33,363 nt of DNA from Planctomycetota bacterium (GTDB taxonomy: Bacteria > Planctomycetota > Brocadiia > JAJRTI01), in the NCBI GenBank assembly GCA_024278415.1, contig JAJRTI010000923.1:1-33363 (forward strand), given 5' to 3'. Positions 9,426-33,363 of this stretch are shown in pieces. The position numbers were made by a program, and so were the translations under genes. The notes beneath the pieces were generated by a model. That model was not told the origin of the DNA and searched no databases. It saw nothing but the letters and a program-made list of their open reading frames with translations. The first letter of the stretch is position 1, and the number at the start of each line of letters is the position of its first letter.

Positions 9426-9464
9426 GTCAGTCGATAGGGGTATGGGATTCCTGGCTGCGTGCGG

Positions 9465-11165: not shown

Positions 11166-11172
11166 TTCGCAG

Positions 11173-11239
11173 AATGGTTGATGGTTAATGGTGGATGATT
11201 GATGATGGCAGAGGCTACCGGTTCCGATCATTAACCACT
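11173..11239. repeat. Heptad-word inverted repeat upstream of tadA
   Basis: A run of 7-base words with T-G-A-T character (GGTTGAT, GGTTAAT, GGTGGAT, GATTGAT) at about 11176-11205 is followed by a short inverted echo, ATCATTAACCACT (11227-11239). This is low-complexity DNA between cpaB and tadA and is not coding on either strand. Confidence 0.6.
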
Positions 11240-11247
11240 GTCTGTCT

Positions 11248-11303
11248 GGGGACACGTTGCGATCCGTCCCGCACATGCGGGACGGCTTCCGCATCGCGTC
11301 CCC
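11248..11303. repeat. Long GC-rich hairpin between cpaB and tadA
   Basis: An inverted repeat of 56 nt is visible. Its inner stem is CCGTCCCGCA/TGCGGGACGG with a CA loop (11264-11285, perfect 10 bp). Its outer stem pairs 11248-11261 with 11290-11303, 12 of 14 positions. In transcript order it starts 9 nt after the cpaB stop. There is no T tract, so it is not a classic terminator. It could stabilise or partition the operon mRNA. Confidence 0.7.
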
Positions 11304-11311
11304 GGGCGCCG

Positions 11312-12124: not shown

Positions 12125-12162
12125 GGGTGGCTCCTTTCAGGAGGCGTGAACGGGCGTTCGCA

Positions 12163-12960: not shown

Positions 12961-13009
12961 TGGCAGACCGCGGCGATTGGAGTGTGATTCTCCCGTCGTG
13001 GCAGGTTGT

Positions 13010-13059
13010 CGGTTGTGGGTGTTCGGGCTGCGCAGTCGAAAACCCAACACCCACAACCG
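13010..13059. repeat. 17-bp stem inverted repeat
   Basis: The right arm is CCCAACACCCACAACCG (13043-13059). The left arm (13010-13027) is its complement with one bulged C, and the loop is 15 nt. The arms are made of short TTGTGGG-like words. It lies in the spacer between the TadE-like gene and the unknown membrane gene. Confidence 0.75.
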
Positions 13060-13081
13060 GCCTTGGCCGCTAGCGAATGGA

Positions 13082-13114
13082 CGAGGGGACCGTCCCAGCG
13101 GGACAGCCCCCTCG
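13082..13114. repeat. GC-rich hairpin next to the 17-bp stem
   Basis: The stem is CGAGGGG/CCCCTCG (13082-13088 with 13108-13114), with an inner GTCCC/GGGAC and an AGC loop. Together with the preceding inverted repeat it fills the spacer. No T tract follows on either strand. Confidence 0.65.
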
Positions 13115-13149
13115 TGGCGGGAAGCAACGTCGTCGCATGGCTGCGAGGC

Positions 13150-14040
13150 TTACGGATTCGGCGACGTCGTCGCCGTCGGGTCGCCGGGCTTCCAATACGA
13201 CTGGATGCTGCTGATGTCTTCAAACGTGCGGATGTCTTGCCGCGCCTGGGAGTCCACGTGCATGCCGTAGCTGGCGATGAAGTCGAGTGTTTTCTCCAAC
13301 ATCTCCGGGCCGGTCACGTTGTTGCTGCTTCCTTCGCCGGTGGCCGGAGGCTCTTCCAGTTGGCCCTGGTATCGGATCATCATGCGGAACGAACTCTCCC
13401 AGGGCTCAAGCTCCAGGCTCGTGGGCGGGCCTTCGAGTGTGAGGTAGTCGTGGTACGCGTCGGGGGTGTCCGCGTCCTTGTGTTCGCTAGGGTTGGAGAA
13501 GATGAGGTCGGCGAACTCTGGCTCGTACGTGTACGCCACGTCGGCTCGCGTGCGCACCATCCAGATTCGCCCCTGGCTGTCGCGGTTGAGGAGATTCGCG
13601 ACCGCGACCTTGTAGTCATCGATGCGGTCGGCCATATCCTCCATGAAGCTTGACGAGTAGTCGCCCACTTCGCGGTACACGCGCTCCAGGCCGTTCGGTC
13701 CCAGCACGAGGTCTGCGATGACGTGTTTTTGCGCCAGGTCTTGGAACGTGAGCGCCAGGTCCGCCTGGCTCCAGGGATCGGTCTCGTTCATGCCGCTGTC
13801 GTCTGAGACCTCGAACTCGCCGTCGATTTCTTGGCAGAAGATATCGTCGAGCCGCTGAGCATCGCTGGAGCCAGAGAGTCCGACGTACCACACCGCGGCG
13901 CGCTGCTTCTGCCGGCCCAACATCAGGTTGCCGAAGAAGATCACGCCCAACAGGACAACGCAGTACGCCGGCATGATGATGGTCGTCTCGATCATGGCCG
14001 AGCCGGGTTCGCGGCGCTTGGGATGTCGGAAGTGCATCAT
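13150..14040 (-). CDS. TadE-like pseudopilin
   Basis: This 296-residue protein has a basic N-terminus, then GSAMIETTIIMPAYCVV, a TadE-type processing and TM region (about 15-40) with the conserved Glu of prepilin signals. The remaining 250 residues are soluble, rich in Asp, Ser and Trp, and end in a Pro/Thr-rich tail. It should be processed by the TadV peptidase and act as a minor pilin or assembly factor. Start: ATG 14040 or ATG 14037 (adjacent codons). The longer open frame upstream is repeat DNA. Confidence 0.75.
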   Translation of the reverse strand: MMHFRHPKRREPGSAMIETTIIMPAYCVVLLGVIFFGNLMLGRQKQRAAVWYVGLSGSSDAQRLDDIFCQEIDGEFEVSDDSGMNETDPWSQADLALTFQDLAQKHVIADLVLGPNGLERVYREVGDYSSSFMEDMADRIDDYKVAVANLLNRDSQGRIWMVRTRADVAYTYEPEFADLIFSNPSEHKDADTPDAYHDYLTLEGPPTSLELEPWESSFRMMIRYQGQLEEPPATGEGSSNNVTGPEMLEKTLDFIASYGMHVDSQARQDIRTFEDISSIQSYWKPGDPTATTSPNP

Positions 14041-14061
14041 GGCAACAGAACCAGGTTGTTC

Positions 14062-14118
14062 GTCATTGGTCATTGAGCCATTCGATGTCGTGTGCATCCG
14101 GCCCCAATGACTAATGAC
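14062..14118. repeat. Heptad-word inverted repeat
   Basis: The left arm GTCATTGGTCATTG (14062-14075) pairs with the right arm CAATGACTAATGAC (14105-14118): 14 pairs with one G-T wobble, 29-nt loop. The word ACTAATG continues to 14124 and returns at 14264-14284. Confidence 0.75.
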
Positions 14119-14158
14119 TAATGAGTGTCCGCCGCGAAATGCCGCGCGACAGGCGCTT

Positions 14159-14234
14159 GTAGCGCGCTCGTAAGAGCGTCTCTGGCCGGTAATGCGGGAA
14201 ACCACAGAGCGGAACGCACTGACGTGCGTGCTAC
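14159..14234. repeat. Two-headed REP-like element (BIME-like)
   Basis: The left head is GTAGC, then a CGCTC-GTAA-GAGCG hairpin, then CTCT. The right head is AGAG, then a CGCAC-TGAC-GTGCG hairpin, then GCTAC. The ends (GTAGC/GCTAC) and inner flanks (CTCT/AGAG) are complementary. The same plan recurs at 18692-18766 with different stems. Confidence 0.75.
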
Positions 14235-14263
14235 CCGCGGGCTCCGTACCTTTCGCGACAGAG

Positions 14264-14284
14264 ACTAATGACTAATGACTAATG
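14264..14284. repeat. Three exact tandem ACTAATG heptads
   Basis: ACTAATG is present three times without a gap, ending 4 bp before the stop of the TadG-like gene. The same word occurs at 14110-14124 on the other side of the BIME-like element. Confidence 0.8.
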
Positions 14285-14288
14285 GCGA

Positions 14289-16934
14289 CTAGTGATACAG
14301 CACGTCCTCGAACTTCACGTCGTCGGTATCGGTCGCGCCCTGTTGGTCGCCAAACTGGAGGCGGCGGCCGTCGCGCCGGCGCATGGAGTTGAGTGCGGGG
14401 ATATTCTCAAGCTTGTTCTCGCGCACGAGTTTGCTGATGTAGTGCGATTCGCCGCTCGCGAAAAGTTGGTAGAGCCACCCCGCGGCGGAGTCGGACATGC
14501 GGCCTTCGAGTTCGTGGCCTTCGAGTTCCAGGTCGTCGGGGTCGATGTTGTTCTTAGTGGACACGAGCCGCGCGGCCCAGCGAGTCACGTAGAGGTTGCC
14601 GCCGCTGGACTGGCCTTCGAGCCACTTGGTCCGCACGCTGTCGTCTTGGGGCGCGGGGTCGCCGGGGCGGGTCTCCACGTGCACCGGGCCCTTGAGCTTC
14701 CACACGAACCCGTTGGCATCGGCCGACTCGGTATGGGCCAGGGCGGGGTCGTAGAAGCCAGCCCGCGCGGAAGCCACGGCCATGCAGCCCCAGTCGGGCA
14801 TACGCGGGGTTTCGTCTCCCTTTGTCGGGTCCACGAAGGGGTTGATGAGAATGGGCATGAGCGTGGAGCCGCTGGGATCTTCGCGGCGGGTGCCCACGTC
14901 CATGCCGGGCCAGGGGTTGGCCCACACGGCCACGTTCATGCCGTACTTGAAGAACTCCTCGGTCAGCACAAGCGGCTCCTGCACCTTGCCCTCCACGCCG
15001 TACGAGTTATCCTTCGCCATCTGGAGCTGGAGGAAGTTTTTCCAACTCTCGCTGCCTTGGTGGCGGTATGCGGTGTCCTTGGGCCGCACGCACACCTGCG
15101 TGGTCGCTTGGCCCCAGGTCTGGCCTTTGCACACGGGGCAGGTGTAGGTCTCCTGGACCATGTTGCCCGAGCCGGGCGGATCCTCGATGGTGCGCGTCTT
15201 CTCTCCGCTGCCGTCGCAGTACCAGCAGGGGCGCATCTGGTAGAATTGCGACTTGGGCGGCGTGTACCCGGGCTCCCAGGGGGAGTCCTTGGGCGACTTA
15301 GCCTCATAGGTCATGCCCGTGTCGTCGTCGCCCCCGGGCGCCACGCCCATCCAGTACATCCAATCCGGCAAGTTGTCGGTCGCCACGGCGGACTCGAAGT
15401 TGCCCCAGTCGGAGTAGTCGTCGAAGTTCCAGCGCACGGCTTGGTTCAGTCCCAGCCGATAGCGGTTGGACTCCCAATTCAACAGCGACCCTAGTTCTTC
15501 ATAGTTGTATTCCCATTTGTTATTAGGGAACTCTGGGTCTGGGGTGAGCCGGTGTTGCCACCAGTAGTCGCCTCGTTCATCGTAGTACTTGCGCCACCGG
15601 CCGTCCGCGTTGTCCACGGTCAGTGTGTACTGGCGCACGGTGATTCGGAAGTGGTCGATGACTCCGAGGTGGACAGGCCCGACCGTGTGCGAGAAGGAGA
15701 TAGGCGTGCGGAGGGAGAAGTACGTGCCGTGCGCGCTGACCGCGGGCGGGTTGCCTATGTATACGCTGAGCCCCTCGTCGATGCGCACCCAGTCGTCGAT
15801 CTGCACGCGCACGCCGTCGTGCTCGTATTCGGTCAGGCTCACCCAGTCGCCGTTGCGCCGCACTTCTAGGTCGTGGCTCGTGGGGTTGCGCCGGAAGATC
15901 TCGACCACTTCGCCGTCGACGATGAGGTCATAGGCGCCATCGCCGAGCGAGGGATGGGGCCTCGCGCCGATGCTGTGGGGCGTCTGGCCGGGGGCTTGCG
16001 TGCTGACGATCCAAAACGCGGTGTCGCCAGAGCCCACCTTCTTGCAGTGCACCTCGGTGCCCTGCGGGCTGCGCGTGATGAGCCACTCCTCCTGCGCGTC
16101 GTCCAACTGCTCGATGTGCAAGGTTTCGTCTTGGTCCACGCCGGCGACGCTGCGAATGGTCCACACCTTCTCTGTTGGGTGCCGCACTTCGATGTAGCGC
16201 GTCGTTTTCCCGTTCTCCCACACCTCGATGTTCCACCCGTCCTCCTCGTCGAGCTTCTCGATCATCATGTCGACCTTGCGCGCATTGAGGGGGTACCAGC
16301 GGCTGCCCCAGAATACGCTCTTGTGGCTCGCGCCGGCCTCGTACGCGGCCTTGTCGATCTCGTCCTCGATCAGCACCGGCCCCGCGAGCACGATGGCTTG
16401 CTCGATGTGAGACAGCTCCATGAGCCAGCGCTTGGCCTCGGGGAACACGACTTCTGCGCGTGCGGAGAGTTCCGCGAGTTTCTGGCACGCGAAGCCGGGC
16501 GACGGCGCGGCTTCCGCCTGCGCCAGGTAGGGCGAGTTGGCCCCCCACAAGTTCAGCACGCCGCATGGGTACCCTTCTGGCGGCATGAGCGATGTGCCGG
16601 AGCGGAGCAGGCTCTTGGGGTCTTCGAACTCGGCCAACACGGCGAAGGTGGTGATGTCGGCCATCTGCCGCAGCAGCGAGTGGTAGATCTGGGCCATGCC
16701 GTTGTTGATCCAGCCCACGGAGCTGAGGCAGTTGGCTTGGATCATCGCGGCGGACATGGCCGCGGAGTCGGCCGCGGTCTGCACCTTGATGCGGGTCATG
16801 CAGACCTGGCCCACGTTGTAGACCATGGTTGCGGCCATGATGATGATGAGGAAGCTCATGGCCGCGAACACGAGCCCCTGGCCGCGCTGGTCGCTGTGCA
16901 GGCGCTGTGTCGCGCGTGTGATGATGCGGATCAT
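14289..16934 (-). CDS. Large TadG-like protein with a DnaJ-type CxxCxGxG site
   Basis: This 881-residue protein starts with a TadG-type N-terminal TM (about 20-42) followed by VQTAADSAAMSAAMIQAN, the conserved helix of the TadE/G-like N-terminal family. The large remainder is probably extracytoplasmic, acidic and rich in Trp and Tyr. It holds a four-Cys pattern: CWYCDGSG (C570/C573) and CPVCKGQT (C599/C602). The first matches the DnaJ zinc repeat CxxCxGxG exactly. TadG proteins are assembly factors or tip pseudopilins; this one is about twice the usual size. ATG 16934 is chosen because the upstream frame is repeat DNA. No Shine-Dalgarno sequence is seen. Confidence 0.8.
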   Translation of the reverse strand: MIRIITRATQRLHSDQRGQGLVFAAMSFLIIIMAATMVYNVGQVCMTRIKVQTAADSAAMSAAMIQANCLSSVGWINNGMAQIYHSLLRQMADITTFAVLAEFEDPKSLLRSGTSLMPPEGYPCGVLNLWGANSPYLAQAEAAPSPGFACQKLAELSARAEVVFPEAKRWLMELSHIEQAIVLAGPVLIEDEIDKAAYEAGASHKSVFWGSRWYPLNARKVDMMIEKLDEEDGWNIEVWENGKTTRYIEVRHPTEKVWTIRSVAGVDQDETLHIEQLDDAQEEWLITRSPQGTEVHCKKVGSGDTAFWIVSTQAPGQTPHSIGARPHPSLGDGAYDLIVDGEVVEIFRRNPTSHDLEVRRNGDWVSLTEYEHDGVRVQIDDWVRIDEGLSVYIGNPPAVSAHGTYFSLRTPISFSHTVGPVHLGVIDHFRITVRQYTLTVDNADGRWRKYYDERGDYWWQHRLTPDPEFPNNKWEYNYEELGSLLNWESNRYRLGLNQAVRWNFDDYSDWGNFESAVATDNLPDWMYWMGVAPGGDDDTGMTYEAKSPKDSPWEPGYTPPKSQFYQMRPCWYCDGSGEKTRTIEDPPGSGNMVQETYTCPVCKGQTWGQATTQVCVRPKDTAYRHQGSESWKNFLQLQMAKDNSYGVEGKVQEPLVLTEEFFKYGMNVAVWANPWPGMDVGTRREDPSGSTLMPILINPFVDPTKGDETPRMPDWGCMAVASARAGFYDPALAHTESADANGFVWKLKGPVHVETRPGDPAPQDDSVRTKWLEGQSSGGNLYVTRWAARLVSTKNNIDPDDLELEGHELEGRMSDSAAGWLYQLFASGESHYISKLVRENKLENIPALNSMRRRDGRRLQFGDQQGATDTDDVKFEDVLYH

Positions 16935-16963
16935 GGGAAGGCTCGGAGGCTGAAGGGGCGAAG

Positions 16964-17045
16964 CGTAAAAACGTAAAACGTAAACCGCAAGGTCGGAAAC
17001 GCGCACCGAGAGGGTCTCTGCTTACGTTTCACGTCTTTACGTTTT
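16964..17045. repeat. Inverted ACGTAAA heptad arrays
   Basis: The left array is GTAAAAACGTAAAACGTAAA (16964-16983). The right array (17021-17045) has the inverse words TTACGTT, TCACGTC and TTTACGT. A GC-rich stretch lies between. It fills the spacer between the two pilin-like genes. Confidence 0.65.
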
Positions 17046-19799: not shown

Positions 19800-21986
19800 C
19801 TAGTTCGTCAGCCCGTACAACACCACGTTCGCCCCGAGCTTGAGCGCGTCGTCACGCACCACGCCGAGGCACTTCTGGCACGGATGGTTTTCCCAGCCGC
19901 ACCCCAGGCCGAACTTGGAGTACACCACCCCCAGCCGGCCCTCGAACTCGATGCCCTCCAGCCACGGCCCGATGGGGGCCTGCTGCTTCTCGATCACCGC
20001 TTGACGGTACTTCACGGAGCGAATCGAGAAGCCGGTGTGGAAGATCGGGTGCTCCGCGGGCAAACGCTTCAACGGCCGGTCTGGGAAGAGCTGTTCCATC
20101 AGCTTGCGAAACGACCCGTCGAACTTGGAGTTGCCACAGCAGCTTTCTGCAAACAGGAATCCGCCCCGCTCCAAGTACAGCTTCAGCCTGGCCTTCTCCT
20201 CGTCGGCGAGGACAACCGGGTGATGCCCCACCATGTAAAGGACGGGGTAGTCGAAGAGGTCCGGGTTCGTGAGCGCGACGGCGACCTTGTCCGAGCCCAC
20301 GTCGAGGTTCAGGCTCGACCGCATGTACTGGAGCAGTCCCGCCGCGGAGCGCGTGTCTGGCTCCCAATCGAAGCCGTGCTTGACTTGCGCGAGGACAAAC
20401 GCACCTCTCAGCGTCGGCCCGGTCTTGGTGGGCTCCACGATCTCCACCTTGTCCAGCTTCCCGCGCAGCGGCTCCATGCCGGTGGCATAGGCCAAGACGT
20501 TGATGCCTAGCTTGAACGCGGAGTCGGCGATCTGCTGCTTCTCCCACTTGCACGACATGTCCGTGGGGCTGTAGATGATCGACGTGCGGCAGCTCGCGCG
20601 AAGGCCAAACAGCGGCCGGCGCTCGTCGGGCGCGAGCTTGAGAAGCGCCGTGTACACGGGATGGTCCTTGGGCAGCTCCTCCAACTCCTGGTCGGGGTAA
20701 AGCTGCTTCATGAACGCGCGGAAGGACCGGTCGAACTCTTTCCTCGAGCAGCACGCCTCGGCGAAAATAAAGCCGCCCTGCGTGATGTACTCCTGCAACA
20801 ACGCGATCTGCGGCTTGGTGAACTTGAACTCGCGGTGGCCGTTGAAGTACAGCACGGGCGCGGCGAGCAGGTCGCGCAGGCTCATGTCGAAGTCGACGAT
20901 CTGCCAACTGACCCGCTGGCCTGCGACCTCGCTGAAGTACGCGCAGAGGTTCCGTATGTCGTTGGGGTCGTTGTTCCAGTCGCGGCGGCGTTTGAGCTTG
21001 TGCACGAGCACGGGCGCTTTGCCTTTGGCGAGGAAGAGGAGCGCGAAGCAGGTGTCGGGGATGCCGGCCACGCCGGATCCCCAACTGCCGTCAGGCTTCT
21101 GCATCTGCACGAGCAACTGGGCCCCCTCGCGATACCAGTCCTTCCCGCCGAGCCGGCGCCGGGCCGTGAGCACGCCGACGCGCTCGATCGCATAGAGGTA
21201 GTAGAGGTGGTTGCGGTTGCGCCCGGGGTTGGTCTGCACGGTGAAGAATCGGTCGAACCACTTGAGCGCGCGCAGCATGGAGGCGTCATACGCGTACTGG
21301 CCGCAGCGCTCGATGTTGCGCCGCTCCTGGGCGCCGCAGATGACAATGGACGCGAGCCCTGCCGCGGTCATGCTGCCATAGGACTTGTTGTACACCTGCC
21401 GGTAGCCCCAGCCGCCGTCGCCCCGCTGGCTGGAGCGGAAGTAGCCGTCGATCTTGTCCCATACCCTTCTCGGCGCGGGTGCGCCGGACTGCTGCGCGGC
21501 GCGCAAGCCGAGCACGGCGAACTGCGTGTTCGAGTTGTCCGGCTTAGCCTTCAGGCCCCGCGTGTAAGTCCATCCGCCGTTCGTCTGCTGTGCGAGCAAC
21601 AGCCAGTCGCGGCATGCGGTGATCTTGCCGATGTGCGCGTTCGAGTCCACGGTCGCGAGCGCCATGGCCGTGAGCGCGACGCAGTAGGTGAATTCGAGCG
21701 GCTTGCCATTGATGTAGAACACCCCTGCCTTCACGGCCGGGTCGCTGCGGGGCACCCCGGCGTTGATGAGCGTCAGCGTCGCGAGCGCGGTTGCGCCTTG
21801 GAGGTATCGTTGGGCGTATGGCCACGACCCGTCGGGCTGCTGCACGCTCTTGAGGTAGGCCACCCCGCGTGCGATTGCGCGGTTCACGTCTGCGGTCGTG
21901 ACCGGCGCGCCGGCGGCGAGCGCGGGGCTTGCGCCTACGCAGACCGCGGCCAGCCATCGCCATCGTCTTGCCGCATGGAGCGCCAT
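19800..21986 (-). CDS. Secreted squalene-cyclase-like repeat protein with two DUF4159 domains
   Basis: This 728-residue protein has a signal peptide (about 1-25). Residues of about 30-330 carry four QW-type words (QPDGSWPY, QTNGGWTY, QRGDGGWGY, QKPDGSWGS), the mark of the alpha/alpha toroid of squalene-hopene cyclases. The catalytic DxDD acid motif is not seen, so it is probably not a cyclase. Two related DUF4159 units follow (about 345-460 and 555-680). Each has a PVLYxxGH strand, a GGF(I/L)FAE(A/S)CC turn and a conserved FR..M.QL(Y/F)PD segment. The DUF4159 fold resembles glutamine amidotransferase-like domains. The function is unknown; the architecture is common in planctomycetes. A weak promoter at 21993-22021 could give a nearly leaderless mRNA. 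Confidence 0.82.
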   Translation of the reverse strand: MALHAARRWRWLAAVCVGASPALAAGAPVTTADVNRAIARGVAYLKSVQQPDGSWPYAQRYLQGATALATLTLINAGVPRSDPAVKAGVFYINGKPLEFTYCVALTAMALATVDSNAHIGKITACRDWLLLAQQTNGGWTYTRGLKAKPDNSNTQFAVLGLRAAQQSGAPAPRRVWDKIDGYFRSSQRGDGGWGYRQVYNKSYGSMTAAGLASIVICGAQERRNIERCGQYAYDASMLRALKWFDRFFTVQTNPGRNRNHLYYLYAIERVGVLTARRRLGGKDWYREGAQLLVQMQKPDGSWGSGVAGIPDTCFALLFLAKGKAPVLVHKLKRRRDWNNDPNDIRNLCAYFSEVAGQRVSWQIVDFDMSLRDLLAAPVLYFNGHREFKFTKPQIALLQEYITQGGFIFAEACCSRKEFDRSFRAFMKQLYPDQELEELPKDHPVYTALLKLAPDERRPLFGLRASCRTSIIYSPTDMSCKWEKQQIADSAFKLGINVLAYATGMEPLRGKLDKVEIVEPTKTGPTLRGAFVLAQVKHGFDWEPDTRSAAGLLQYMRSSLNLDVGSDKVAVALTNPDLFDYPVLYMVGHHPVVLADEEKARLKLYLERGGFLFAESCCGNSKFDGSFRKLMEQLFPDRPLKRLPAEHPIFHTGFSIRSVKYRQAVIEKQQAPIGPWLEGIEFEGRLGVVYSKFGLGCGWENHPCQKCLGVVRDDALKLGANVVLYGLTN

Positions 21987-24368: not shown

Positions 24369-24397
24369 TTGACACGACCTCACGATTCGGATATCCT
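24369..24397 (+). promoter_or_regulatory. Sigma70-type promoter, plus strand
   Basis: TTGACA (24369-24374), a 17-bp spacer and TATCCT (24392-24397). It would drive the HlyD/DUF3467/GAF-HlyD/M50 operon from about 24404, leaving a leader of about 87 nt. Confidence 0.6.
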
Positions 24398-24490
24398 CTC
24401 GTGGCTTACCGTCTATCGCAGATACTGGCGGAAACGCCGCTTACGGCTTCGGCGCACCGCGGGCTTGTAATCTCCAGTAGGTGTATCGGG

Positions 24491-25357
24491 ATGCCCAACA
24501 CTCTTCGCCTCGCGGCTGCTCTTTTGATATGCCATTGCGGCGCTGGCTTAGGCCAGGAGCTGCCGGGGCGGCTCCGCCAAGAAGACTCCGTCTCGGTCAC
24601 GTGCTTCACCATGCCGTACCGCGAGTCGGCCTTGGCCAGCGAGGTCGGTGGGGTGCTGATGGAGGTGCTGGTGAAGGAGGGCGATAGCGTGCGCAAGGAC
24701 CAGCCGCTGGTGCGGCTCAAGGCCGACGTGCTCAAAGCCCAAATCGAGATCAGCAAGTCTCGCGTCATTTCGGCCCAGCACACGATCGACGCGTCGGAGG
24801 TCGACTATGACACGCGCAGGCGTGAGTACGTTCGCATGGAGAAGCTGCTCAGGGACAAGGGCGGCGTGGTGTCGCAGAAGGAGTATGATGACGCCAAACG
24901 CGACATGCTTGTCGCGCAGATCGGCTTGGCCGGAGCCAAGGTCGCCAAGCGCGAAGCCGAACTCACGGTTGCGCGCGACCAGGCGTTGCTCGACCAGACC
25001 CAGATCGACGCACCCTTCGACGGACTCGTGCGCGGCATCCTCAAGCGCGAGGGCGAGGCCGTGGAGCGGGACCGGGACGTGATCCTATCCCTCGCGTCCA
25101 TCGACCCACTTTACGTCATCGCCCACGTGCCCATCAGCACGATTGGCTACATCAAACCCGGAGACAAGGCCCAGCTCGTGCTGGAGCACATGCCCAAGAC
25201 GGTGTTGGTGTGCCAAGTGGACGTTGTGGACAAAGTCGCGGACGCGGCCAGCGGCACGTACCGCGTGCGGCTCCTGCTGCCCAACCCCGGCAAGAAGCTG
25301 CCGGCCGGAGCCAAGGGGCAGATCACGTTCAAACTGCCCCAACGGCTTGCGCCGTGA
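24491..25357 (+). CDS. HlyD-like periplasmic adaptor protein
   Basis: This 288-residue protein has a signal peptide (about 1-21). It then has the split lipoyl layout of membrane-fusion proteins: first half SALASEVGGVLMEVLVKEGD (about 48-67), an alpha-hairpin coiled coil (about 80-165), second half IDAPFDGLVRGILKREGE, and a beta-barrel (about 185-280). It should bridge an inner-membrane partner to the envelope. No RND or ABC transporter gene follows; the partners are the two HlyD-containing proteins downstream. ATG 24491 has AGGTG about 8 bases upstream; the frame upstream is promoter DNA. Confidence 0.85.
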   Translation: MPNTLRLAAALLICHCGAGLGQELPGRLRQEDSVSVTCFTMPYRESALASEVGGVLMEVLVKEGDSVRKDQPLVRLKADVLKAQIEISKSRVISAQHTIDASEVDYDTRRREYVRMEKLLRDKGGVVSQKEYDDAKRDMLVAQIGLAGAKVAKREAELTVARDQALLDQTQIDAPFDGLVRGILKREGEAVERDRDVILSLASIDPLYVIAHVPISTIGYIKPGDKAQLVLEHMPKTVLVCQVDVVDKVADAASGTYRVRLLLPNPGKKLPAGAKGQITFKLPQRLAP

Positions 25358-25425
25358 CCCTGCCCAAGACATCAACCAACAAGACGTAACCTGCCGCCCC
25401 CTGTTCAACCAAAGGAGTGTATGAC

Positions 25426-25809
25426 GTGGCCGAAAACGAAAACGCAGCCCAAGGCGACGCACAGCAGAACCGCGCGCAACTGCGGCTCAACTATGACAAC
25501 GTCAAGACGAGCTACACCAACTTTTTCATCGTTAATGCCCGCGCAGAAGAAGTGGTCGTGAACCTGGGCCTGAGCGTCATGCCCCCGCAGCAGGCGCCAG
25601 ACCAAGTCGCGCAAGTCATGGTCGAGATCACCGACCGCATGATCATGACGTACTCGTCGGCCAAGCGCCTCGCCGTGACGCTGGGCAACATCATCCAGCA
25701 GTATGAAAACGTCAACGGTGTGATTGACCTGACGCCTCCGCAGCAGCAGGCCCAAGGCCAGACCCCTGGCTCCGCTCCGGCTGCCGGCGCGGAGTCGCAA
25801 GACTCGTAA
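25426..25809 (+). CDS. DUF3467 family protein
   Basis: This small cytoplasmic protein of 127 residues has the DUF3467 pattern: YTNFFIVNARAEEVVVNLGL, then ITDRMIMTYSSAKRLAVTLG and a final IIQQYENVNGVID. The tail is Gln/Pro/Ala-rich. The biochemical role of DUF3467 is unknown. The start is GTG 25426, with AAAGGAG 8 bases upstream; the earlier in-frame GTG 25417 overlaps that site. It follows the adaptor gene after 68 bp. Confidence 0.8.
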   Translation: MAENENAAQGDAQQNRAQLRLNYDNVKTSYTNFFIVNARAEEVVVNLGLSVMPPQQAPDQVAQVMVEITDRMIMTYSSAKRLAVTLGNIIQQYENVNGVIDLTPPQQQAQGQTPGSAPAAGAESQDS

Positions 25810-25817
25810 GCCCGCCG

Positions 25818-25844
25818 CCTGATCTGCCTGATCTGTCCGATCTC
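25818..25844. repeat. Three 9-base units, inverse of the 23084-23137 array
   Basis: CCTGATCTG, CCTGATCTG and TCCGATCTC are the reverse complement form of the CAGATCAGA family. They occupy the 47-bp spacer before the GAF-HlyD gene. Confidence 0.75.
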
Positions 25845-25856
25845 TGGATCGCGATA

Positions 25857-27794
25857 GTGGAGCCCCGAGTGAGCCAAGCGGCCAACCAAGAACGCATCGA
25901 GCAGCCGCCACCAGGTGAGACGCGGCAGACGCATCTGCCTATCCTCAGCTTGGTGGAGACGCTCGAGCAGGTTTGCCTGTCCGACCAACCTCCGGACAAG
26001 CTCATCTCGGAACTCTTGCGCGGGTTTGTGGGGCTGTCCGACGCTGAATACGCGGCGTACTTGCGGGTGGACGCCCACTCCAAGCAGTTGGCCGTGGCGG
26101 CGGAACTCATGCCCCGTGTGACCGAGGCCGGGGCCCGCGCCTGGGGGCCGCAGATCGCGGAGCTGGCGGCCGGCGTGATCCAGCAGGCCATCATTCGCTA
26201 CCGCGCGGTCAGCGAGCCCGGCGACCGTGTCCTCACCGGCCAGGGCTACACCGCGGTCGCGTTCCCTGTGCGGGGCGACGCCGCGGTCGCGGGCGCGGTC
26301 GTGGTCGTGGTCAAGGACGGCAGCGTCATCCTGACCGACACGGGCATCTCGATGCTGCGGCTGCTCGCGAACTTCGGCCTGCTCTCCACCACGCACCGCG
26401 CGGCGCACGCCGCGCAGCAGACCTACCACTCGCTCTCGAACGCGTGGTCCGTGGTGAGCGAGATCATGGCCTTCACCAAGCCGGTCGAGATGGCCGAGGT
26501 GCTCGTGAACCGCGCACGCAGCGCGTTTGGCGCGGACCGGGCGTCGGTCGGCTTTGTCAAGGGCGAGAAGGTGACGGTGGCCGCGGTCAGTGGGCAAGAC
26601 ATCATCGACAAGCGCAGCAACATTGTGAAGCACATCCGCGCCGCGCAGATGGAAGTCGTGGTGTCTGGGGAGGCGCACTCGTACCAGATCCCGGCCGAAG
26701 GCGAGGACGACGCGGAGCAGCGGTCTCGAAGCCCCCAACACGTGGTGCTCGCGGAGGAAGGGGAAGCCAAGACGGTCTACAGCCTGCCGCTGCGCCACGA
26801 CCAAGACATCGTCGGCGTGGCCACCTTCGAGTACCAGAAAGAGCCCCTGGCCGAGGGCGTACGCCAGGTGCTCGACATCGTCGCCGGCCAGATGGGGCCC
26901 TTGCTGTATCTGGCCCTTCAGAACGCTCGCGCGATTCGGCAGCACATGCGGGACGGCGCCAAGGCGGCCGCGCAGAAGGTGTTTGGCAAGGAGCACCCCT
27001 GGCGCCGCGCCATCGGCACCGCCATCGTCGCGCTGCTCGTCTTCGCCATCTTCGGCCGGTGCGACTTCAATATTTCCGGGAGCTGCCAACTCGAGCCCTC
27101 GCTCCGGCGCATCTATTCCGCGCCCTTCAGTGCGGTGATCGAGGCCGCGCCAGTGCGGCCGGGCGACCTGGTGAAGAAGGGCGACGTGATCCTCCGCTTC
27201 GAGCAAGAGGACCTGCGCATGCAATTGCGCGAGATCTCCGCGAAGCTCGTGAGCACGGAAAAGCAGATGGCTTCGGAGCTGGCCGAAGGCAAGGTGGCCG
27301 ACTACGCGGAGTCCGTGGCGCTGCGCCAGGCCTACCTCGCGGAGAAGCAGTTGATCGAGCGGCATCTCGCCCAGACCGTGGTCAAGAGCGGGCAGAACGG
27401 CATCGTGCTCGAAGGCGACTTGAAGCAGGACATCGGCCGGCCCGTGCAGATGGGCACGCAACTTATCATCGTGGCGCCGCTGGAGCAACTGCTGCTCGAA
27501 ATGTACGTGGCCCAAGATGACGTCGCGTACATCAAGCCGGAGCAAGAGGGCGAGTTCACGACCAAGGCCGTGCCCGGCAAATCGATCCCTTTCACCGTCA
27601 CCAAGGTCCGGCCCTCGCCTGTGGTGTACCAGGGCGAGAGCATGTTCGTGGCCGAGGCCCTCGTGTCCAACCCGTCCGGAGCCTTGCGCACGGGCATGGA
27701 AGGCGCGGCCAGGGTCACCGTCGGCCGGCGCAACGTGACCTGGATCGCGACACGCAAGATCCTCAACTGGCTGCGGCTCAAGCTGTGGTGGTAG
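25857..27794 (+). CDS. GAF-GAF-TM-HlyD hybrid membrane protein
   Basis: This is a 645-residue protein from GTG 25857 (GTG 25869 also possible). The cytoplasmic part has two GAF-like domains (about 30-185 and 195-355). The second includes FGADRASVGFVKGEKVTVAA and a long polar loop. A TM segment (about 385-402) follows. The periplasmic part is a HlyD-type adaptor with lipoyl halves SAPFSAVIEAAPVRPGDLVK and SGQNGIVLEGDL, a short hairpin and a beta-barrel. The last residues (WIATRKILNWLRLKLWW) form an aromatic, basic helix, echoed at the end of the M50 protein. It probably senses a cytoplasmic signal or ligand and passes it to an envelope assembly. Confidence 0.82.
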   Translation: MEPRVSQAANQERIEQPPPGETRQTHLPILSLVETLEQVCLSDQPPDKLISELLRGFVGLSDAEYAAYLRVDAHSKQLAVAAELMPRVTEAGARAWGPQIAELAAGVIQQAIIRYRAVSEPGDRVLTGQGYTAVAFPVRGDAAVAGAVVVVVKDGSVILTDTGISMLRLLANFGLLSTTHRAAHAAQQTYHSLSNAWSVVSEIMAFTKPVEMAEVLVNRARSAFGADRASVGFVKGEKVTVAAVSGQDIIDKRSNIVKHIRAAQMEVVVSGEAHSYQIPAEGEDDAEQRSRSPQHVVLAEEGEAKTVYSLPLRHDQDIVGVATFEYQKEPLAEGVRQVLDIVAGQMGPLLYLALQNARAIRQHMRDGAKAAAQKVFGKEHPWRRAIGTAIVALLVFAIFGRCDFNISGSCQLEPSLRRIYSAPFSAVIEAAPVRPGDLVKKGDVILRFEQEDLRMQLREISAKLVSTEKQMASELAEGKVADYAESVALRQAYLAEKQLIERHLAQTVVKSGQNGIVLEGDLKQDIGRPVQMGTQLIIVAPLEQLLLEMYVAQDDVAYIKPEQEGEFTTKAVPGKSIPFTVTKVRPSPVVYQGESMFVAEALVSNPSGALRTGMEGAARVTVGRRNVTWIATRKILNWLRLKLWW

Positions 27795-27801
27795 CCGAGG
27801 A

Positions 27802-27880
27802 ATGGTTCATGGTTGAGGGTTAATGGCTGATGCGGATGTGCGTCCGCCCATCAACCATTCATCATGAACCATCAACCATG
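27802..27880. repeat. Heptad-word inverted repeat before the M50 gene
   Basis: ATGGTTCATG (27802-27811) pairs perfectly with CATGAACCAT (27863-27872). Surrounding GGTTAATGG and CCATCAACCAT words extend it. A small GC hairpin, GCGGA/TCCGC (27832-27847), sits at the centre. Confidence 0.75.
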
Positions 27881-27886
27881 TGTCCC

Positions 27887-30073
27887 ATGGCCCTCTTCAA
27901 ACGCAAACGTCCCGACTACGACCTCTCCGGCGAACTCGAATTCGCCGAGTACGCGCCGCAGCTCCGGCTCCAGAAGCCGCGCCTGCGGCCGGACGCGACA
28001 GTCGTCGAGCAGACGTTCCGGGGCCGGACGTACTATGTGCTGAAGGATCCGGTGAGCCTTCAGTTTTACCGCGTGGCCGACACGGAGCGGGAGGTCATCG
28101 ACCGGCTCGACGGGGAGCACACGCTCGACGATATTCAGCAGCACCTGGAGCAAAAGTTTGGGGCCGAGGCGCCGGCGTTCCGGGAACTCGCGCGGTTTGT
28201 GCTCATGCTTCGGCACGCCAACCTCACTGCGCCGGACGAATCGGAGGATCTGAGTTGGAGCGTCAAGCGCGCGCACAAGAAGCGCATGGACCGGCTCAAG
28301 CAGCGCGCGTCCAGCTTCATGTACATGACCATCCCGATCCTGGATCCGGAGCGGTTCCTCAACGCGACCATGCCCTACCTGCGATGGGCCTTCACGAAAC
28401 CGTTCTTTTTCGTGTGGCTCGCGACGGTGCTCTCGGGCGCGTTCATGATGGTGTACAACTTCCCCGAACTCGCGCAGCAGGCCAACGGCATTCTGGAGCC
28501 GACGAAGCTGCCGCTGCTCTACGTGGCGTTCGTGTTCATCAAGACGCTCCACGAGTTGGGCCACGCGTATGCGGTGAAAGTGCGGGGGGGCGAGGTGCAC
28601 CGCATGGGCATCATGATGCTCATCTTCACTCCCTGTTTCTACGTCGACGCCACGCCGATCTGGGAGTTCAAGGGCCGCTGGCCCAAGGTGCTCGTGGGCT
28701 GCGCGGGCATGATGGCCGAGCTGTTCTTCGCCACCTTCGCGCTCTTCGCCTGGCTCAATGTGGAGCCGGGCACGCTGCGCACGCTGCTCTTCAACGCGGT
28801 GTTCATCGCCAGCGTGTCCACGCTGTTGTTCAACGGCAACCCGCTGCTGCGCTACGACGCCTACTACATTCTCAGCGACCTGCTGGAGATCGTGAACCTG
28901 CGGCAGCGCTCCACGCAATACCTCCAGTACTTGGCCAAGCGCTACCTCATCGGCGAGCGCTTGCCCCCGAGCACGGACCCGCCCGACGAGCGGTTCCACT
29001 TCGTGTGGTATGGCATCGCGGCCACGTGCTATCGGTTTTTCATCATGACGATGATCATCCTGTTCGTGGCGTCGAAGCTCTTCTTCGTCGGCGTGGCCAT
29101 GGCCCTCATCATGAGCGCGTTGTGGGTGCTGACGCCGGTGGTGAAGATGGTCAAGTACATCTTCTTCGACCCCGCGACGCGGCCCGTGCGCGCGCGCGCG
29201 GTCATCGTGTTTGCGGCCGGCTTGCTCTTGGCCGTCATCCTGCTCGGCGGCATTCCGTTCCCGAATGCGGTGCGCGCACCGTGCGCGATCGAGCCGCGGG
29301 AGATGGATTACCTGCGCGCGGCGGAGCCGGGGTTTGTGCGCGAGGTGTACGTGAGGGACGGCGACGTGGTGAAGGAGGGCCAAGTGCTCGCCGTGTTGTT
29401 CAATGAGGACCTGGAGTACCGCATGCGCATCAAGCGGTACGACATCGCCCGCGCCCAGGCGCGGCTGCGCAAGCTGGAAATGGAGCACATGGCCTCCGCG
29501 CAGGCCATCGCCTACCAGCTTGGCGTGTTCCAGCAAGACTTGGCGGAACTGGTCCAGCGCCATGCGAAGCTCACGTTCCGTGCGCCGTTCGACGGGCAAG
29601 TCATTGCGCCGAAACTGGAGCGGATTCAGGGGATCTTCCTCCAAGCGGGCGACCCGCTGTTCGTGGTCGCTTCGCTAGGGGAGTATCGGGTCACCGCGGT
29701 GGTGAGCACGGAGGACGTGGTCGCCCTGAAGGAGGCCGGGCACGTGAAGGTGCGGGTGAAGCTCCGGTCCGCGCCGGGGCGGGTGTGCCTAGGGCGCATC
29801 GAGCGCCTCCACCCTGCGGCCACGCATGCCGCGCCTCCGCAGGGCTTGGCCAATCGGGCCGGGGGACCGGTGCTGCTCGACCCCCAGGCCACGCCCCAGC
29901 AGCCCCGCACGCTGTTTCCGTGGTACCGTGTTGACATCGTGCTGGACGAGGGGCAGTTGATCACCAACATGGGCGCAACGGGGCAGGTCCGCTTCGTCGT
30001 GGGCTCGGAGCCGCTGGGCGCGCAGATCTGGCTGAGGTTCCGCCGGCTCTTGCACCGCCGGTTCCTCATCTAG
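27887..30073 (+). CDS. PqqD-like / M50 site-2 protease / HlyD hybrid
   Basis: This 728-residue protein begins with a cytoplasmic PqqD-like region (about 20-115: YYVLKDPVSLQFYRVADTE, RLDGEHTLDDI). The M50 membrane core (about 145-450) has HELGH (H222, E223, H226) and the third zinc ligand in NPLLRYDAYYILSD (D324, with Ala where Gly is usual). After further TM segments comes a HlyD-type half with lipoyl motifs AAEPGFVREVYVRDGDVVKE and TFRAPFDGQVIAPK and a barrel. It belongs with peptide zinc metalloprotease proteins of the COG1994 type. Catalytic residues look intact. The substrate is unknown. ATG 27887 is chosen; ATG 27878 is possible. Upstream is repeat DNA. Confidence 0.87.
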   Translation: MALFKRKRPDYDLSGELEFAEYAPQLRLQKPRLRPDATVVEQTFRGRTYYVLKDPVSLQFYRVADTEREVIDRLDGEHTLDDIQQHLEQKFGAEAPAFRELARFVLMLRHANLTAPDESEDLSWSVKRAHKKRMDRLKQRASSFMYMTIPILDPERFLNATMPYLRWAFTKPFFFVWLATVLSGAFMMVYNFPELAQQANGILEPTKLPLLYVAFVFIKTLHELGHAYAVKVRGGEVHRMGIMMLIFTPCFYVDATPIWEFKGRWPKVLVGCAGMMAELFFATFALFAWLNVEPGTLRTLLFNAVFIASVSTLLFNGNPLLRYDAYYILSDLLEIVNLRQRSTQYLQYLAKRYLIGERLPPSTDPPDERFHFVWYGIAATCYRFFIMTMIILFVASKLFFVGVAMALIMSALWVLTPVVKMVKYIFFDPATRPVRARAVIVFAAGLLLAVILLGGIPFPNAVRAPCAIEPREMDYLRAAEPGFVREVYVRDGDVVKEGQVLAVLFNEDLEYRMRIKRYDIARAQARLRKLEMEHMASAQAIAYQLGVFQQDLAELVQRHAKLTFRAPFDGQVIAPKLERIQGIFLQAGDPLFVVASLGEYRVTAVVSTEDVVALKEAGHVKVRVKLRSAPGRVCLGRIERLHPAATHAAPPQGLANRAGGPVLLDPQATPQQPRTLFPWYRVDIVLDEGQLITNMGATGQVRFVVGSEPLGAQIWLRFRRLLHRRFLI

Positions 30074-30117
30074 GGTTTTGTCGCGGCCGAAGCGTCGAAC
30101 GCGGCGCCAACCTGCTC

Positions 30118-30448
30118 GTAGTGGCGACCGTAAGGGCGCCCTCTGGCTCGCATGGCGAATGGCCACCCGAGCGGAAGGCCCTCACGGGCCTACTACAAGC
30201 GCGATCATCCGAGCGAGAGGCCCTCACGGGCCTACTACAAGCGCGGTCATCCGAGCGGAAGGCCCTCACGGGCCTACTACAAGCGCGATCATCCGAGCGA
30301 GAGGCCCTCACGGGCCTACTACAAGCGCGATCATCCGAGCGGAAGGCCCTCACGGGCCTACTACAAGCGCGGTCATCCGAGCGGAAGGCCCTCACGGGCC
30401 TACTACAAGCGCGGTCATCCGAGCGGAAGGCCCTCACGGGCCTACTAC
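30118..30448. repeat. REP-like left head plus seven tandem 42-bp right heads
   Basis: A left head (GTAGTG, then GCGACC-GTAA-GGGCGC, 30118-30139) is followed by seven units of 42 bp. Each has a core GGCCC-TCAC-GGGCC and TACTAC at its end; cores start at 30177, 30219, 30261, 30303, 30345, 30387 and 30429. Units differ only at the GGAA/GAGA word and one A/G position. All frames stay open because 42 is a multiple of 3; it is not coding. It lies after the M50 gene. Confidence 0.88.
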
Positions 30449-30618
30449 AAGCGCGGTCTCCCTTTTTGCGATCTACACGCATAGCTTGAAACAATTGCAC
30501 CTGTAATCCTGGCGTCGTAACAAGATCGACCTGGTGCGTGCTCCTGGCTCTCGCGTTGCCCATGGGCCCCTCCCCAAGGCCTTGGGCCTTAGCGGGGGGC
30601 ATCGGACCTTTTTTCTTG

Positions 30619-30648
30619 TTGACACGCCACGTTCTACAAGTGTATATT
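30619..30648 (+). promoter_or_regulatory. Strong sigma70-type promoter of the sigma factor gene
   Basis: TTGACA (30619-30624, 6/6), an 18-bp spacer and TATATT (30643-30648, 5/6). The start would be near 30655, leaving a leader of about 305 nt. The leader holds small hairpins: TGTACC/GGTACA (30769-30788) and the palindrome GAGACGCGTCTC (30887-30898). No known riboswitch is recognised. Between the array and this promoter, CCCAAGGCCTTGGG (30573-30586) is a perfect palindrome. Confidence 0.7.
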
Positions 30649-30960
30649 ACGTCACCTTATGCAGGCACACTAGCAGTCCCCAGCAAACGGAACGTTCCCT
30701 TCAGTGCCAAGGGCGACCTCTCGCCAGGCCGGGTGCTCCAGGTCGGATGGCGCCGGCTGGCTGTGTTTTGTACCGTGTCTTTGGTACAGCCGCGGCTGCG
30801 GACACCTCTGCGATGGCCTGAACGCGCGTTGCGCCTCGGGCTTGTTTCGTGTCCATCCCCGAAAAAAGTTTGCATAGCTTTGGGGCGAGACGCGTCTCTA
30901 CGAAGGTATCACCCTTCATCTCGTCTAACCTCAGTCCCGTCTCGGCCGGAACCCGAATCC

Positions 30961-33192
30961 ATGCCGACGCCCTCGCAGGCATACCCTCAGACGTATGAGG
31001 CCGACCAGTTCGCTGAGCTGGCGCGGCGCTATGCGGACATGGTCTACGGCACCTGCCTGCGGGTCACGCGTAACGTGCACGACGCGGAGGACGCCGCGCA
31101 GGAGTGCTTCCTCAGGCTCCTCAAGCGCGGAGACACCATCACGACCAGCGCGGCCGGCTGGCTCCACACGACTGCGGTCCACTGCTCCGTGGGGCTCATC
31201 CGCAAGGCCTCTACGCGCCGGCGCCACGAGGCGCAAGTGGCGCCAACGGCCCTCGCCTACGAAGAGACCACCGAGCCCTCCTGGGAAGATATCGCGGCCA
31301 TCATCGATGGGGCGATCGACGGCCTGGCTGACCCCTTGCGTGTGCCGCTGGTGATGCACTACCTCGACGGGCTCAGCCAGATGGACATCGCCGCGGAACT
31401 CGGGGTGAGCCAATCGACCATCTCGCGGCGCATCGAGCGCGCGCTGGCCGAAGTGAGCCGCAAGCTCAAGAAGGCCGGCCTGTTTGTGCCGCTGCTCCTG
31501 CTTGCGGCGATGCTCAACAAGAACGCCTCCGCGGCCGCGGCCCCGGCCTCGCTCACGGCGGCGTTGGGCAAGATGGCGATCGCCAGCGCCGCGCGCAGCG
31601 CGGACGCCGGCGCGGCCGGGGCAGCCCCAGGCCTCACCTCATCCACGCTCGCGCGCACCATCTTCGGCGCGTGGCGCGGCAAGGCCGTGGTCTCCACGGT
31701 TGGGGCGCTCTTCGTCGCGGTCGGCATCGCCATTGGCCTCCGCGCGGGGGGCCACCGCGCACACCGCGCCGCGATCGGCGCGGGAGGGACAGGCGCGGCC
31801 GCACAGCATGCCGCACACACAGGCGCGGGCGCCGCACTCACCGCTACCCAGAAGGCCGAGTTGCTCCAAAAGGTCGTGCGCGCCAATCGGCTCAACCGGG
31901 AGCAGATCCAGACCTGGGCGTGGGTGATGCGCACCGGCACAGGCGTTTTCGCCGCGGCTTCGGACGGTACGAGCGTGCGGGTGCAAGAACTGGGCGGCGC
32001 ACTCCCCTCCCGCACGCTGGCGCGTGCGGCGACCAAGCTCTGGGGCGAGGATTTCTACGCCGAAGGCGAGCCTGGCCCCCTCGGCCCGCTGTTCGTGCAA
32101 CCCCGCGGCGTAGCCGACCCGGATCCCTACGACCCGCGCACGAAGCTAGCCGACGTGCAGCCGCGCGCGGCCTGGGATATCCAGTGGGATGACGGGCTGG
32201 TGCTCCTGGCCAGCCGCGAGCCGCAGCGCACGACCGAGACGTGGCTCGCACCCGGCCGCGGGTACGCGCCCGTGCGCCGGCGCGTGCGCGGCGACCGGAA
32301 CTTCGACGAGGAGTTCGTGGTCGAGCAGCACGACGGTGTGTGGTTTCCCATGCAGACTCGCCGCCGGCTCGTGGACGCAGACGGCAACGTGGTGGGCGAA
32401 GAAACCGAATTGGCCGAGGCGGTGCGATTCAATGCGCGCATCGACTGGACCGCGGTCGACATGGGCGCGGCGTTCGGCCTTGCGCCCGAAGCGATGGTCG
32501 TGGACTCGCGCTTCGGCTCTTCCGCATATCAGTTCGGCTCGCGCGCGCCCGTGCGAGGGGGCGACGAATCGCCCCTCTCTCATTCGCTCGTGCAAGCGGC
32601 GCAAGACGTGATGGCCGCGGATGGCGCTCATGCCGCGCCGGTCGCCTCCTGCGCGGCGAGCGACCCGCTGTCCCTCGCGCTCGCGCTCAACGGCTTGCCC
32701 TCGCCCGGCACGCCTCCCGCGGCGGCTGATCTGGGGGATCTGTTGGCCCTGGCCAACGACGCCGGCGCGGCCGGCGACTTGCGCACCGCGTCGTGGGGTG
32801 AGTTGAAGAAGCACAACGGCTGCGCCATTGTCCATTGGGGCGACGGGCCGCGGCCGGCGCTGTTGCTGCCGGCGTACGGCGACGAGATGGTGCTCGTCGA
32901 GGCTGGGGCCGAGCCGCGTCTGGTGAGCCGCGGCGAGTTTGCCGCGGCCTGCGCGGGCTCGGACGTGCTGCTCATCGACGGCCCGCCGGACGAAGGCGGT
33001 GATACGGGCGTGTCCGCATCCGACGCGGAAGGCGGCGTTTCGCAGTCGATGGCCCCATCTGATACCAACCCGGAGGCTCGCGCCTCCTCGCAATCTCAAT
33101 CTATGACATCGCAATCCGAGTCCGCCGCGTCCGCGGCGTGGGACTCGCCAGCTTCGGCCGAATCGGCACGAACGGAGGAAACGAGCAAGTGA
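30961..33192 (+). CDS. ECF sigma factor fused to a membrane, LolA-like and degenerate C39-like region
   Basis: This 743-residue protein has sigma region 2 (about 16-90: DAEDAAQECFLRLLKRGD) and region 4 (about 112-170: LSQMDIAAELGVSQSTISRR). Two hydrophobic segments follow (about 173-186 and 242-260). Residues of about 290-480 look like a LolA-type beta fold (ETWLAPGRGYAPVRRR, HDGVWFPMQTRRRLVD). Residues of about 560-680 resemble a C39 peptidase-like domain (DLLALANDAGAAGDLRTASW, CAIVHWGDG). A Cys is present near 564, but the expected catalytic His and Asp are missing. The tail is Ser-rich. The sigma part would be held at the membrane and might be controlled from outside or by release. ATG 30961 is used although the frame is open to 30538, since the promoter lies inside that stretch. 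Confidence 0.83.
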   Translation: MPTPSQAYPQTYEADQFAELARRYADMVYGTCLRVTRNVHDAEDAAQECFLRLLKRGDTITTSAAGWLHTTAVHCSVGLIRKASTRRRHEAQVAPTALAYEETTEPSWEDIAAIIDGAIDGLADPLRVPLVMHYLDGLSQMDIAAELGVSQSTISRRIERALAEVSRKLKKAGLFVPLLLLAAMLNKNASAAAAPASLTAALGKMAIASAARSADAGAAGAAPGLTSSTLARTIFGAWRGKAVVSTVGALFVAVGIAIGLRAGGHRAHRAAIGAGGTGAAAQHAAHTGAGAALTATQKAELLQKVVRANRLNREQIQTWAWVMRTGTGVFAAASDGTSVRVQELGGALPSRTLARAATKLWGEDFYAEGEPGPLGPLFVQPRGVADPDPYDPRTKLADVQPRAAWDIQWDDGLVLLASREPQRTTETWLAPGRGYAPVRRRVRGDRNFDEEFVVEQHDGVWFPMQTRRRLVDADGNVVGEETELAEAVRFNARIDWTAVDMGAAFGLAPEAMVVDSRFGSSAYQFGSRAPVRGGDESPLSHSLVQAAQDVMAADGAHAAPVASCAASDPLSLALALNGLPSPGTPPAAADLGDLLALANDAGAAGDLRTASWGELKKHNGCAIVHWGDGPRPALLLPAYGDEMVLVEAGAEPRLVSRGEFAAACAGSDVLLIDGPPDEGGDTGVSASDAEGGVSQSMAPSDTNPEARASSQSQSMTSQSESAASAAWDSPASAESARTEETSK

Positions 33193-33363
33193 AACGCACC
33201 GAACCCAAGGCCCGCAAGCGACAGTTGAAGCTCGACCGCCTGGAAGACCGCATCCTGCTCAACTTCACGCTGGGGCCGGGCCAGTGGACCTACTTCAACA
33301 CTAGCTCCACCAACCCGAGTGGCTTGGACTCCCGAGACGTGGTGGTGATCAATGCGAGTCCGA
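33189..33363 (+). CDS. N-terminus of a predicted giant surface protein with an LEPR-XLL-like motif (partial)
   Basis: The first 58 codons are present; the gene runs off the window. It starts at GTG 33189, overlapping the sigma gene stop as GTGA, with GGAGG about 10 bases upstream. The basic N-terminus leads to LDRLEDRILLNF, a close variant of the LEPR-XLL motif found at the start of very large secreted or surface proteins of planctomycetes. The overlap implies coupled translation with the sigma factor. Length and repeats cannot be judged here. Confidence 0.7.
   Translation, partial: MKRTEPKARKRQLKLDRLEDRILLNFTLGPGQWTYFNTSSTNPSGLDSRDVVVINASP

Follow-up and report, generated by a model that had tools for sequence, protein, structure and literature searches.

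What does a bacterium do with three HlyD-type proteins encoded side by side and no pump among them? The question is raised by four plus-strand genes at 24491-30073 of a stretch of 33,363 nucleotides from a Planctomycetota bacterium (contig JAJRTI010000923.1); we refer to this whole stretch as the window. Separated by intergenic gaps of about 60-90 bases, the genes encode a membrane fusion protein (MFP) adaptor, a DUF3467 protein, a GAF-transmembrane-HlyD (GAF-TM-HlyD) protein and a PqqD-M50-HlyD protein. Judging from gene content and a structural model, this operon is likely to be the envelope part of an uncharacterised machine that exports one giant repeat protein or several, in this genome probably the product of the reading frame at 33189. 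The evidence comprises the gene content, a conserved neighbourhood with giant proteins, a leader motif that these share, a conserved active site and a fold like that of RRE domains, the recognition elements of ribosomally synthesised and post-translationally modified peptides (RiPPs). The core of the module has been known since 2015 (PMC4452313); the link to giant cargo and the reading of the PqqD/RRE domain as a leader-binding domain are proposed here.

The operon and the module it probably belongs to

The M50 protein (27887..30073, 728 aa) carries most of the diagnostic features. It scored 23.5 bits with PqqD (PF05402, cut-off 23.4) and 47.6 bits with HlyD_D23, while the M50 model, at 25.6 bits, fell just under its cut-off of 27.2. 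The HExxH motif (H222, E223, H226) and the second-motif Asp of site-2-type proteases (D324) are invariant in 16/16 and 11/11 sequences of two alignments, which have two members in common. The PqqD-like M50 protease of the original prediction stands. In the AlphaFold2 model (pLDDT 80.5, pTM 0.52), residues 29-117 match the fold of leader-binding RREs (PqqD 3g2b, TfuB1 6jx3, TbiB1 5v1u) with weak sequence similarity, so that profile and fold both identify a PqqD/RRE domain. Unlike those RREs, it is fused to a membrane protease, and its proposed ligand is the leader of a giant protein. Residues 454-722 match MacA/AcrA-type adaptors. As the list of structure matches consists mostly of adaptor entries, the absence of a solved site-2 protease from it is no evidence against such a fold.

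The gene directly upstream encodes the GAF-TM-HlyD protein (25869..27794, 641 aa), with an HlyD_3 match of 48.4 bits, over the cut-off; its assignment also draws on hydropathy and on its relatives. A pair of GAF domains had been predicted in this protein, which is unconfirmed because all three GAF models of Pfam fall on a single stretch, residues 211-347, with 21.9-26.3 bits and all below their cut-offs (GAF_3: 26.3 bits, E-value of 1.1e-5, cut-off 27). A hydropathy scan marked hydrophobic segments at residues 130-156 and 378-402. The second, ahead of the HlyD part, is presumed from its position in the sequence to be the membrane anchor, which would place the GAF domain in the cytoplasm and the adaptor part in the periplasm.

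The remaining two genes are shorter. The first in the operon (24491..25357) encodes a separate MFP/HlyD-family periplasmic adaptor of 288 aa, with 134.5 bits for the RND_mfp profile TIGR01730 (cut-off 94.9) and 74 bits for HlyD_D23, computed on the frame from 24374 with the start placed at 24491. Its N-terminus, MPNTLRLAAALLICHCGAGLGQ, resembles a signal peptide by eye only; the hydropathy scan gave no flag. The DUF3467 protein (25417..25809, 130 aa, alternative start at 25426) was recognised with 48.2 bits by PF11950 (cut-off 25). We found no solved structural relative for it (best E-value 0.18), and its predicted structure, based on only four sequences and with a pLDDT of 47, was set aside. 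Profile searches and reading frames thus agree with the predicted gene positions and family types, including the DUF3467 assignment and the three HlyD-type proteins (MFP by TIGR01730, GAF-TM-HlyD by HlyD_3, M50 fusion by HlyD_D23).

The operon had been predicted to lack a pump and an outer-membrane channel. No ATP-binding cassette (ABC) or resistance-nodulation-division (RND) transporter was identified by a Pfam scan of the nine proteins at 19.8-33.2 kb, and no SecA- or TolC-like gene by tblastn of the 33-kb window at 1e-4 with proteins of relatives as queries. The window ends inside the presumed giant frame, and SecA, TolC and the length of the giant beyond 33363 lie outside the data, as would any distant ABC transporter gene of this genome.

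This gene content resembles a module reported, from Planctomycetes among others, by Kamneva, Poudel and Ward in 2015 (PMC4452313). As described there, its core consists of GAF/HlyD, M50/HlyD and HlyD proteins and a secondary SecA_DEAD ATPase, proposed as the motor, sometimes with a TolC-type channel and with no ABC transporter; module partners are located elsewhere in some genomes, and the broader biological role is called "completely unknown". The genes that the paper lists include META1p2399-2402 of Methylobacterium extorquens AM1. The window contains neighbouring genes for a GAF protein with an HlyD/biotin_lipoyl part, an M50 protein with an HlyD domain and membrane helices, and a third HlyD protein, the MFP at 24491-25357. 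It differs in lacking a SecA_DEAD gene, and the present analysis connects the module with a giant gene and an RRE domain. The best reading of the operon is that it belongs to this module, with its SecA gene out of view. A complex handling a giant protein had been proposed for the window as an undescribed system; the gene neighbourhood described below supports the complex, but "undescribed" fails because the core and its proposed motor were reported in 2015 (PMC4452313). The words DUF3467, PqqD, LEPR and giant are absent from the main text of that paper, and its passages on the module name no cargo. Passages of two further papers (PMC3482391, PMC12288469) hold nothing on a SecA_DEAD/GAF-HlyD/M50-HlyD module, and we found no tie of giant proteins to the module, including under LEPR-XLL, DUF3467 or DUF4347, among the open-licence papers listed.

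Relatives of the operon and their giant neighbours

Among 7993 scored candidates, 3963 were relatives of the M50 protein at an E-value of at most 1e-3. The GAF-TM-HlyD protein matched 14 PLSDB plasmid records at 1e-10, and in 13 of these an M50-HlyD gene directly follows the GAF-TM-HlyD gene (from coordinates, checked by tblastn). The exception is Terrarubrum (L032), where the GAF-HlyD gene is split and no M50 gene adjoins it. This copy and that on a Rhizobium johnstonii plasmid (L020), where the SecA_DEAD match comes in two overlapping pieces, appear to be decaying. The 14 records hold 15 module loci, two of them in Pseudosulfitobacter, which we call type A. Their annotation is incomplete; four loci (L021, L035, L036, L052) carry none, and there the first module gene was placed from tblastn matches.

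In 13/15 type A loci, tblastn placed a secondary SecA_DEAD gene downstream of the M50 gene, and SecA_DEAD exceeded its cut-off on eight of the nine records searched; it was absent from the whole Thalassospira plasmid. A scan of four SecA-like proteins, with lengths of 638-679 aa, listed SecA_DEAD and no SecA wing-scaffold match, the architecture described for these proteins in PMC4452313. A separate short MFP and a DUF3467 gene each occur in 10/15 loci, and TolC-type genes adjoin the module in Methylosinus and Thalassospira. A scan of genome contigs yielded one locus (L001), with GAF-HlyD, M50-HlyD and SecA_DEAD genes. Viral contigs contained no relative in three scans. In metagenomes, the longest contig of 9/28 GAF-HlyD relatives had exactly the same size as that of an M50 relative, which suggests that both genes are on the same contig. 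This comparison set 28 of 34 GAF-HlyD rows (without P0122, which is the protein of the window itself, and the distant P0151-P0155) against the 41 of 120 M50 rows listed (P0003-P0043). A tenth pair, at 2347 bases, was dropped, the contig being too short for both genes.

Each of the 15 type A loci has giant open reading frames (ORFs) upstream of the module, which are split in one case. At 13 of 14 scored loci, an ORF running from stop to stop without interruption over 2158-6351 visible aa lies on the same strand as the first module gene, ending at most 296 bases before that gene or overlapping it; in two cases the giant shares 4 bases with the gene that follows. The split case is L032, where an 873-aa ORF follows an overlapping ORF of at least 3423 aa. 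At L020 the giant (at least 5326 aa) is at the far end of the record (L046). At L052 another long ORF overlaps that of 2158 aa, and in W01 (L010) stops lie between the motif-bearing frame and the module ORF, so that the giants there look broken too; these copies likewise seem to be in decay. The longest stop-to-stop giant ORF spans 12,957 aa.

The giants share a leader. In eight of them the frame can be followed from the N-terminus up to the module, and all eight have the motif [LMIFY]EPRxLL with [SNA]AD after it: two from Pseudosulfitobacter and one each from Methylosinus, Pontibrevibacter, Alisedimentitalea, Thalassospira, Sinorhizobium (traced across two overlapping loci, L048 and L021) and Pseudohalocynthiibacter. 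The N-terminus at L045 in W01 (LEPRLLL, nearly identical to L041) would be the ninth but is excluded, as stops separate its frame from the module ORF; the N-termini at type A loci L020/L046, L032, L033, L035, L036 and L052 and at L014 and L050 of the second lineage described below were also left out. As a control, we took 20 loci with 396 complete ORFs no shorter than 150 aa, a set that does not include the N-termini of the type A giants because these lie outside those loci; related motifs in the first 150 aa were confined to three giants of the second lineage. The motif matched five of 777 ORFs on four complete plasmids (counts include circular wrap, and one long W04 ORF is counted twice): four module giants and one further ORF of 5796 aa. 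A fifth module giant on these plasmids was missed because its leader reads YEPRLLL. From these sequence patterns, the cargo class of the module is most likely the giant proteins with LEPR leaders. The 5796-aa ORF is a second giant on the Pontibrevibacter plasmid (W04:115242-132629), away from the module and with MEPRIMLDAS near its N-terminus; its product may be another cargo of this machine.

A second lineage, type B, has the gene order giant, TolC, MFP, HlyD, M50-HlyD in E. coli, Burkholderia, Azospirillum and Kosakonia. Its M50 proteins retain the HExxH motif and the Asp of the window protein, and the leaders of the three giants examined are LEPRVVY, LEPRMLF and LESRQLF. We found no SecA or DUF3467 match at the four type B plasmid loci searched and no GAF domain in the two HlyD proteins scanned. 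The type B M50 gene is matched in 24 of 5426 E. coli genomes, in 22 of them over at least 80% of the gene, and 21 of its 25 places in E. coli are on plasmids. Transposase genes or remnants adjoin both copies of the locus that were inspected (L014, L016), where the giant is an Ig-like protein.

The sigma factor gene and the presumed giant in the window

Downstream of the operon, at 30961..33192 (+), lies a gene for an extracytoplasmic function (ECF) sigma factor (PF04542, 41.0 bits; PF08281, 40.3 bits). Its long C-terminal extension, a tail of about 500 residues, has a hydrophobic segment, recognised by eye, followed by a part that had no Pfam match even at an E-value of 10. An RseB-like or C39-like fold of the tail, suspected by eye, was dropped, as no convincing solved relative emerged (best E-value 0.066). 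The presumed giant begins with a GTG at 33189 and overlaps the sigma stop codon (33190-33192), giving a 4-bp overlap. The overlapping frame starts VKRTEPKARKRQLKLDRLEDRILL, and the N-terminal sequence of the open frame is VKRTEPKARKRQLKLDRLEDRILLNF, including the LEPR-XLL-like leader LEDRILL; the LEPR-XLL profile NF012209 gave 11.8 bits (E-value 0.14), short of its cut-off of 17. Only 58 residues are visible (33189..33363, +) before the window ends with the frame open, and therefore "giant" is not established from the window itself. The predicted coupling of the sigma gene to an LEPR-XLL-like giant was thus confirmed in the overlap; the profile match and the size beyond those 58 residues were not.

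Between the operon and the sigma gene is a tandem array of seven near-perfect 42-bp units (30167..30458, +), every one containing a GGCCC-TCAC-GGGCC hairpin; the predicted fold of a two-unit RNA beats that of shuffled sequences (z of -2.6, with 1/200 shuffles equally good). It is followed by a promoter-like site, TTGACA-18-TATATT (30619..30648, +), recognised by an 11/12 consensus match only, of which one was found against a mean of 0.2 in shuffles. This site suggests that the sigma and giant genes form a transcription unit separate from the operon. On the minus strand, 3733-17006 encodes, by eye only, FHA-domain proteins and CpaF/TadA-like ATPase, TadB/TadC-like and CpaB-like proteins, a Tad/Flp pilus-like cluster, and 19800-21986 encodes a protein that has both prenyltransferase/squalene-cyclase-like repeats and DUF4159 (264.5 bits, two stretches).

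Proposed export of giant proteins and competing explanations

How might such a module export a giant protein? We propose that the PqqD/RRE domain of the M50 protein would bind the N-terminal LEPR-XLL-type leader of the cargo in the cytoplasm. The M50 membrane domain, with its intact HExxH/Asp site, may then help to form the inner-membrane passage, cleave the leader, or both. The MFP parts of the M50 and GAF proteins, together with the free adaptor, would form a periplasmic channel to a TolC-type protein, a step suggested by their family and by the TolC genes at some relatives' loci. Transport would be powered by the secondary SecA_DEAD ATPase, a motor proposed in PMC4452313, encoded elsewhere in the genome or beyond the window. 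More speculatively, the GAF domain could gate the machine on a cytoplasmic ligand.

Two observations temper this proposal. Seen from the M50 side, the predicted pairing with the GAF-TM-HlyD protein, so regular from the GAF side, is weaker: of 75 plasmid records with a match to the M50 protein (1e-5), only 13 have one to the GAF protein (1e-10) as well. Besides these 13, four others were inspected (L014, L049, L050, L051), and all belong to the second lineage, with no GAF domain detected. Moreover, the giant of the window lies downstream, in an apparent transcription unit of its own with the sigma gene, unlike those of the plasmid loci, and its assignment as cargo is therefore weaker than that of the giant class.

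An alternative is maturation and export of a small RiPP, as in the daptide and epipeptide systems: the PqqD-M50 protein would process a small precursor, the HlyD proteins would export the peptide and the giant would be an unrelated neighbour. The RRE-like fold is consistent with this, as is the best NCBIfam profile of the M50 protein, NF041824, a daptide protease family that spans PqqD and M50 together (E-value 5.6e-48) and with which, as with NF058609, the protein shares an HExxH-type M50 part. Its 164 bits, however, are short of the curated cut-off of 300, and with NF058609 too the protein stays under the curated threshold. A search with NF041824 of nine genomes from the phylum of L001 gave matches in four, none over the cut-off. 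Unlike these proteases, the M50 protein is fused to an MFP and accompanies giants rather than small precursors. As giants lie upstream at every type A locus and the incomplete annotation there names no enzyme of peptide maturation next to the module, we consider this explanation unlikely.

The M50 protein could also act as a site-2 protease on the ECF sigma protein, whose tail would be anti-sigma-like, in a membrane-stress relay that turns on the giant gene, with export by another route. The sigma gene, with its hydrophobic segment and long tail, does neighbour an M50 gene, and it is coupled to the presumed giant. Yet the M50 protein bears a full MFP half, and module and giant occur together at annotated plasmid loci where the incomplete annotation names no sigma gene; such a relay seems distinctly improbable. 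Least credible of all is that the proteins serve as usual adaptors of RND or ABC efflux pumps whose genes lie elsewhere, with the M50 and GAF fusions merely regulating them: the free MFP does exceed the RND-adaptor cut-off, the MFP part of the M50 protein matches MacA, and ABC importer genes occur in L010 and L017 (about 6 kb downstream) and in L034 (4.7 kb off), with a substrate-binding protein 1.4 kb off in L032, but none of these is an exporter touching the module, no RND gene is annotated there, and within 5 kb of the 15 type A loci a search with one motif pattern found no ABC ATPase signature, where 13 have SecA_DEAD instead.

Returning to export of the giants, type 1 secretion of giant adhesins such as LapA and SiiE uses an MFP and a TolC-type channel for very large repeat cargo, features that the proposed machine would share. 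In contrast to type 1 secretion, no ABC transporter was seen with the module, which has M50 and SecA-like parts and cargo with an N-terminal LEPR-type leader. Tentatively, and with somewhat less than even confidence, we suggest that the module is a distinct two-membrane secretion system for giants. In it, an RRE joined in one protein with an intramembrane protease and a periplasmic adaptor would read the LEPR-XLL leader of megadalton-scale cargo, and a wing-less SecA motor would drive this cargo through an M50-MFP-TolC conduit. The second lineage (E. coli, Burkholderia, Azospirillum, Kosakonia) would work from loci in which neither a SecA-like nor a DUF3467 gene was found.

The links between module and giant and between RRE and leader turn an orphan locus, whose role was "completely unknown" in the account of PMC4452313, into a testable secretion pathway. 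They would also suggest a function for the LEPR-XLL label of NCBI, and offer a possible answer to how some bacteria export proteins that can reach about 13,000 residues.

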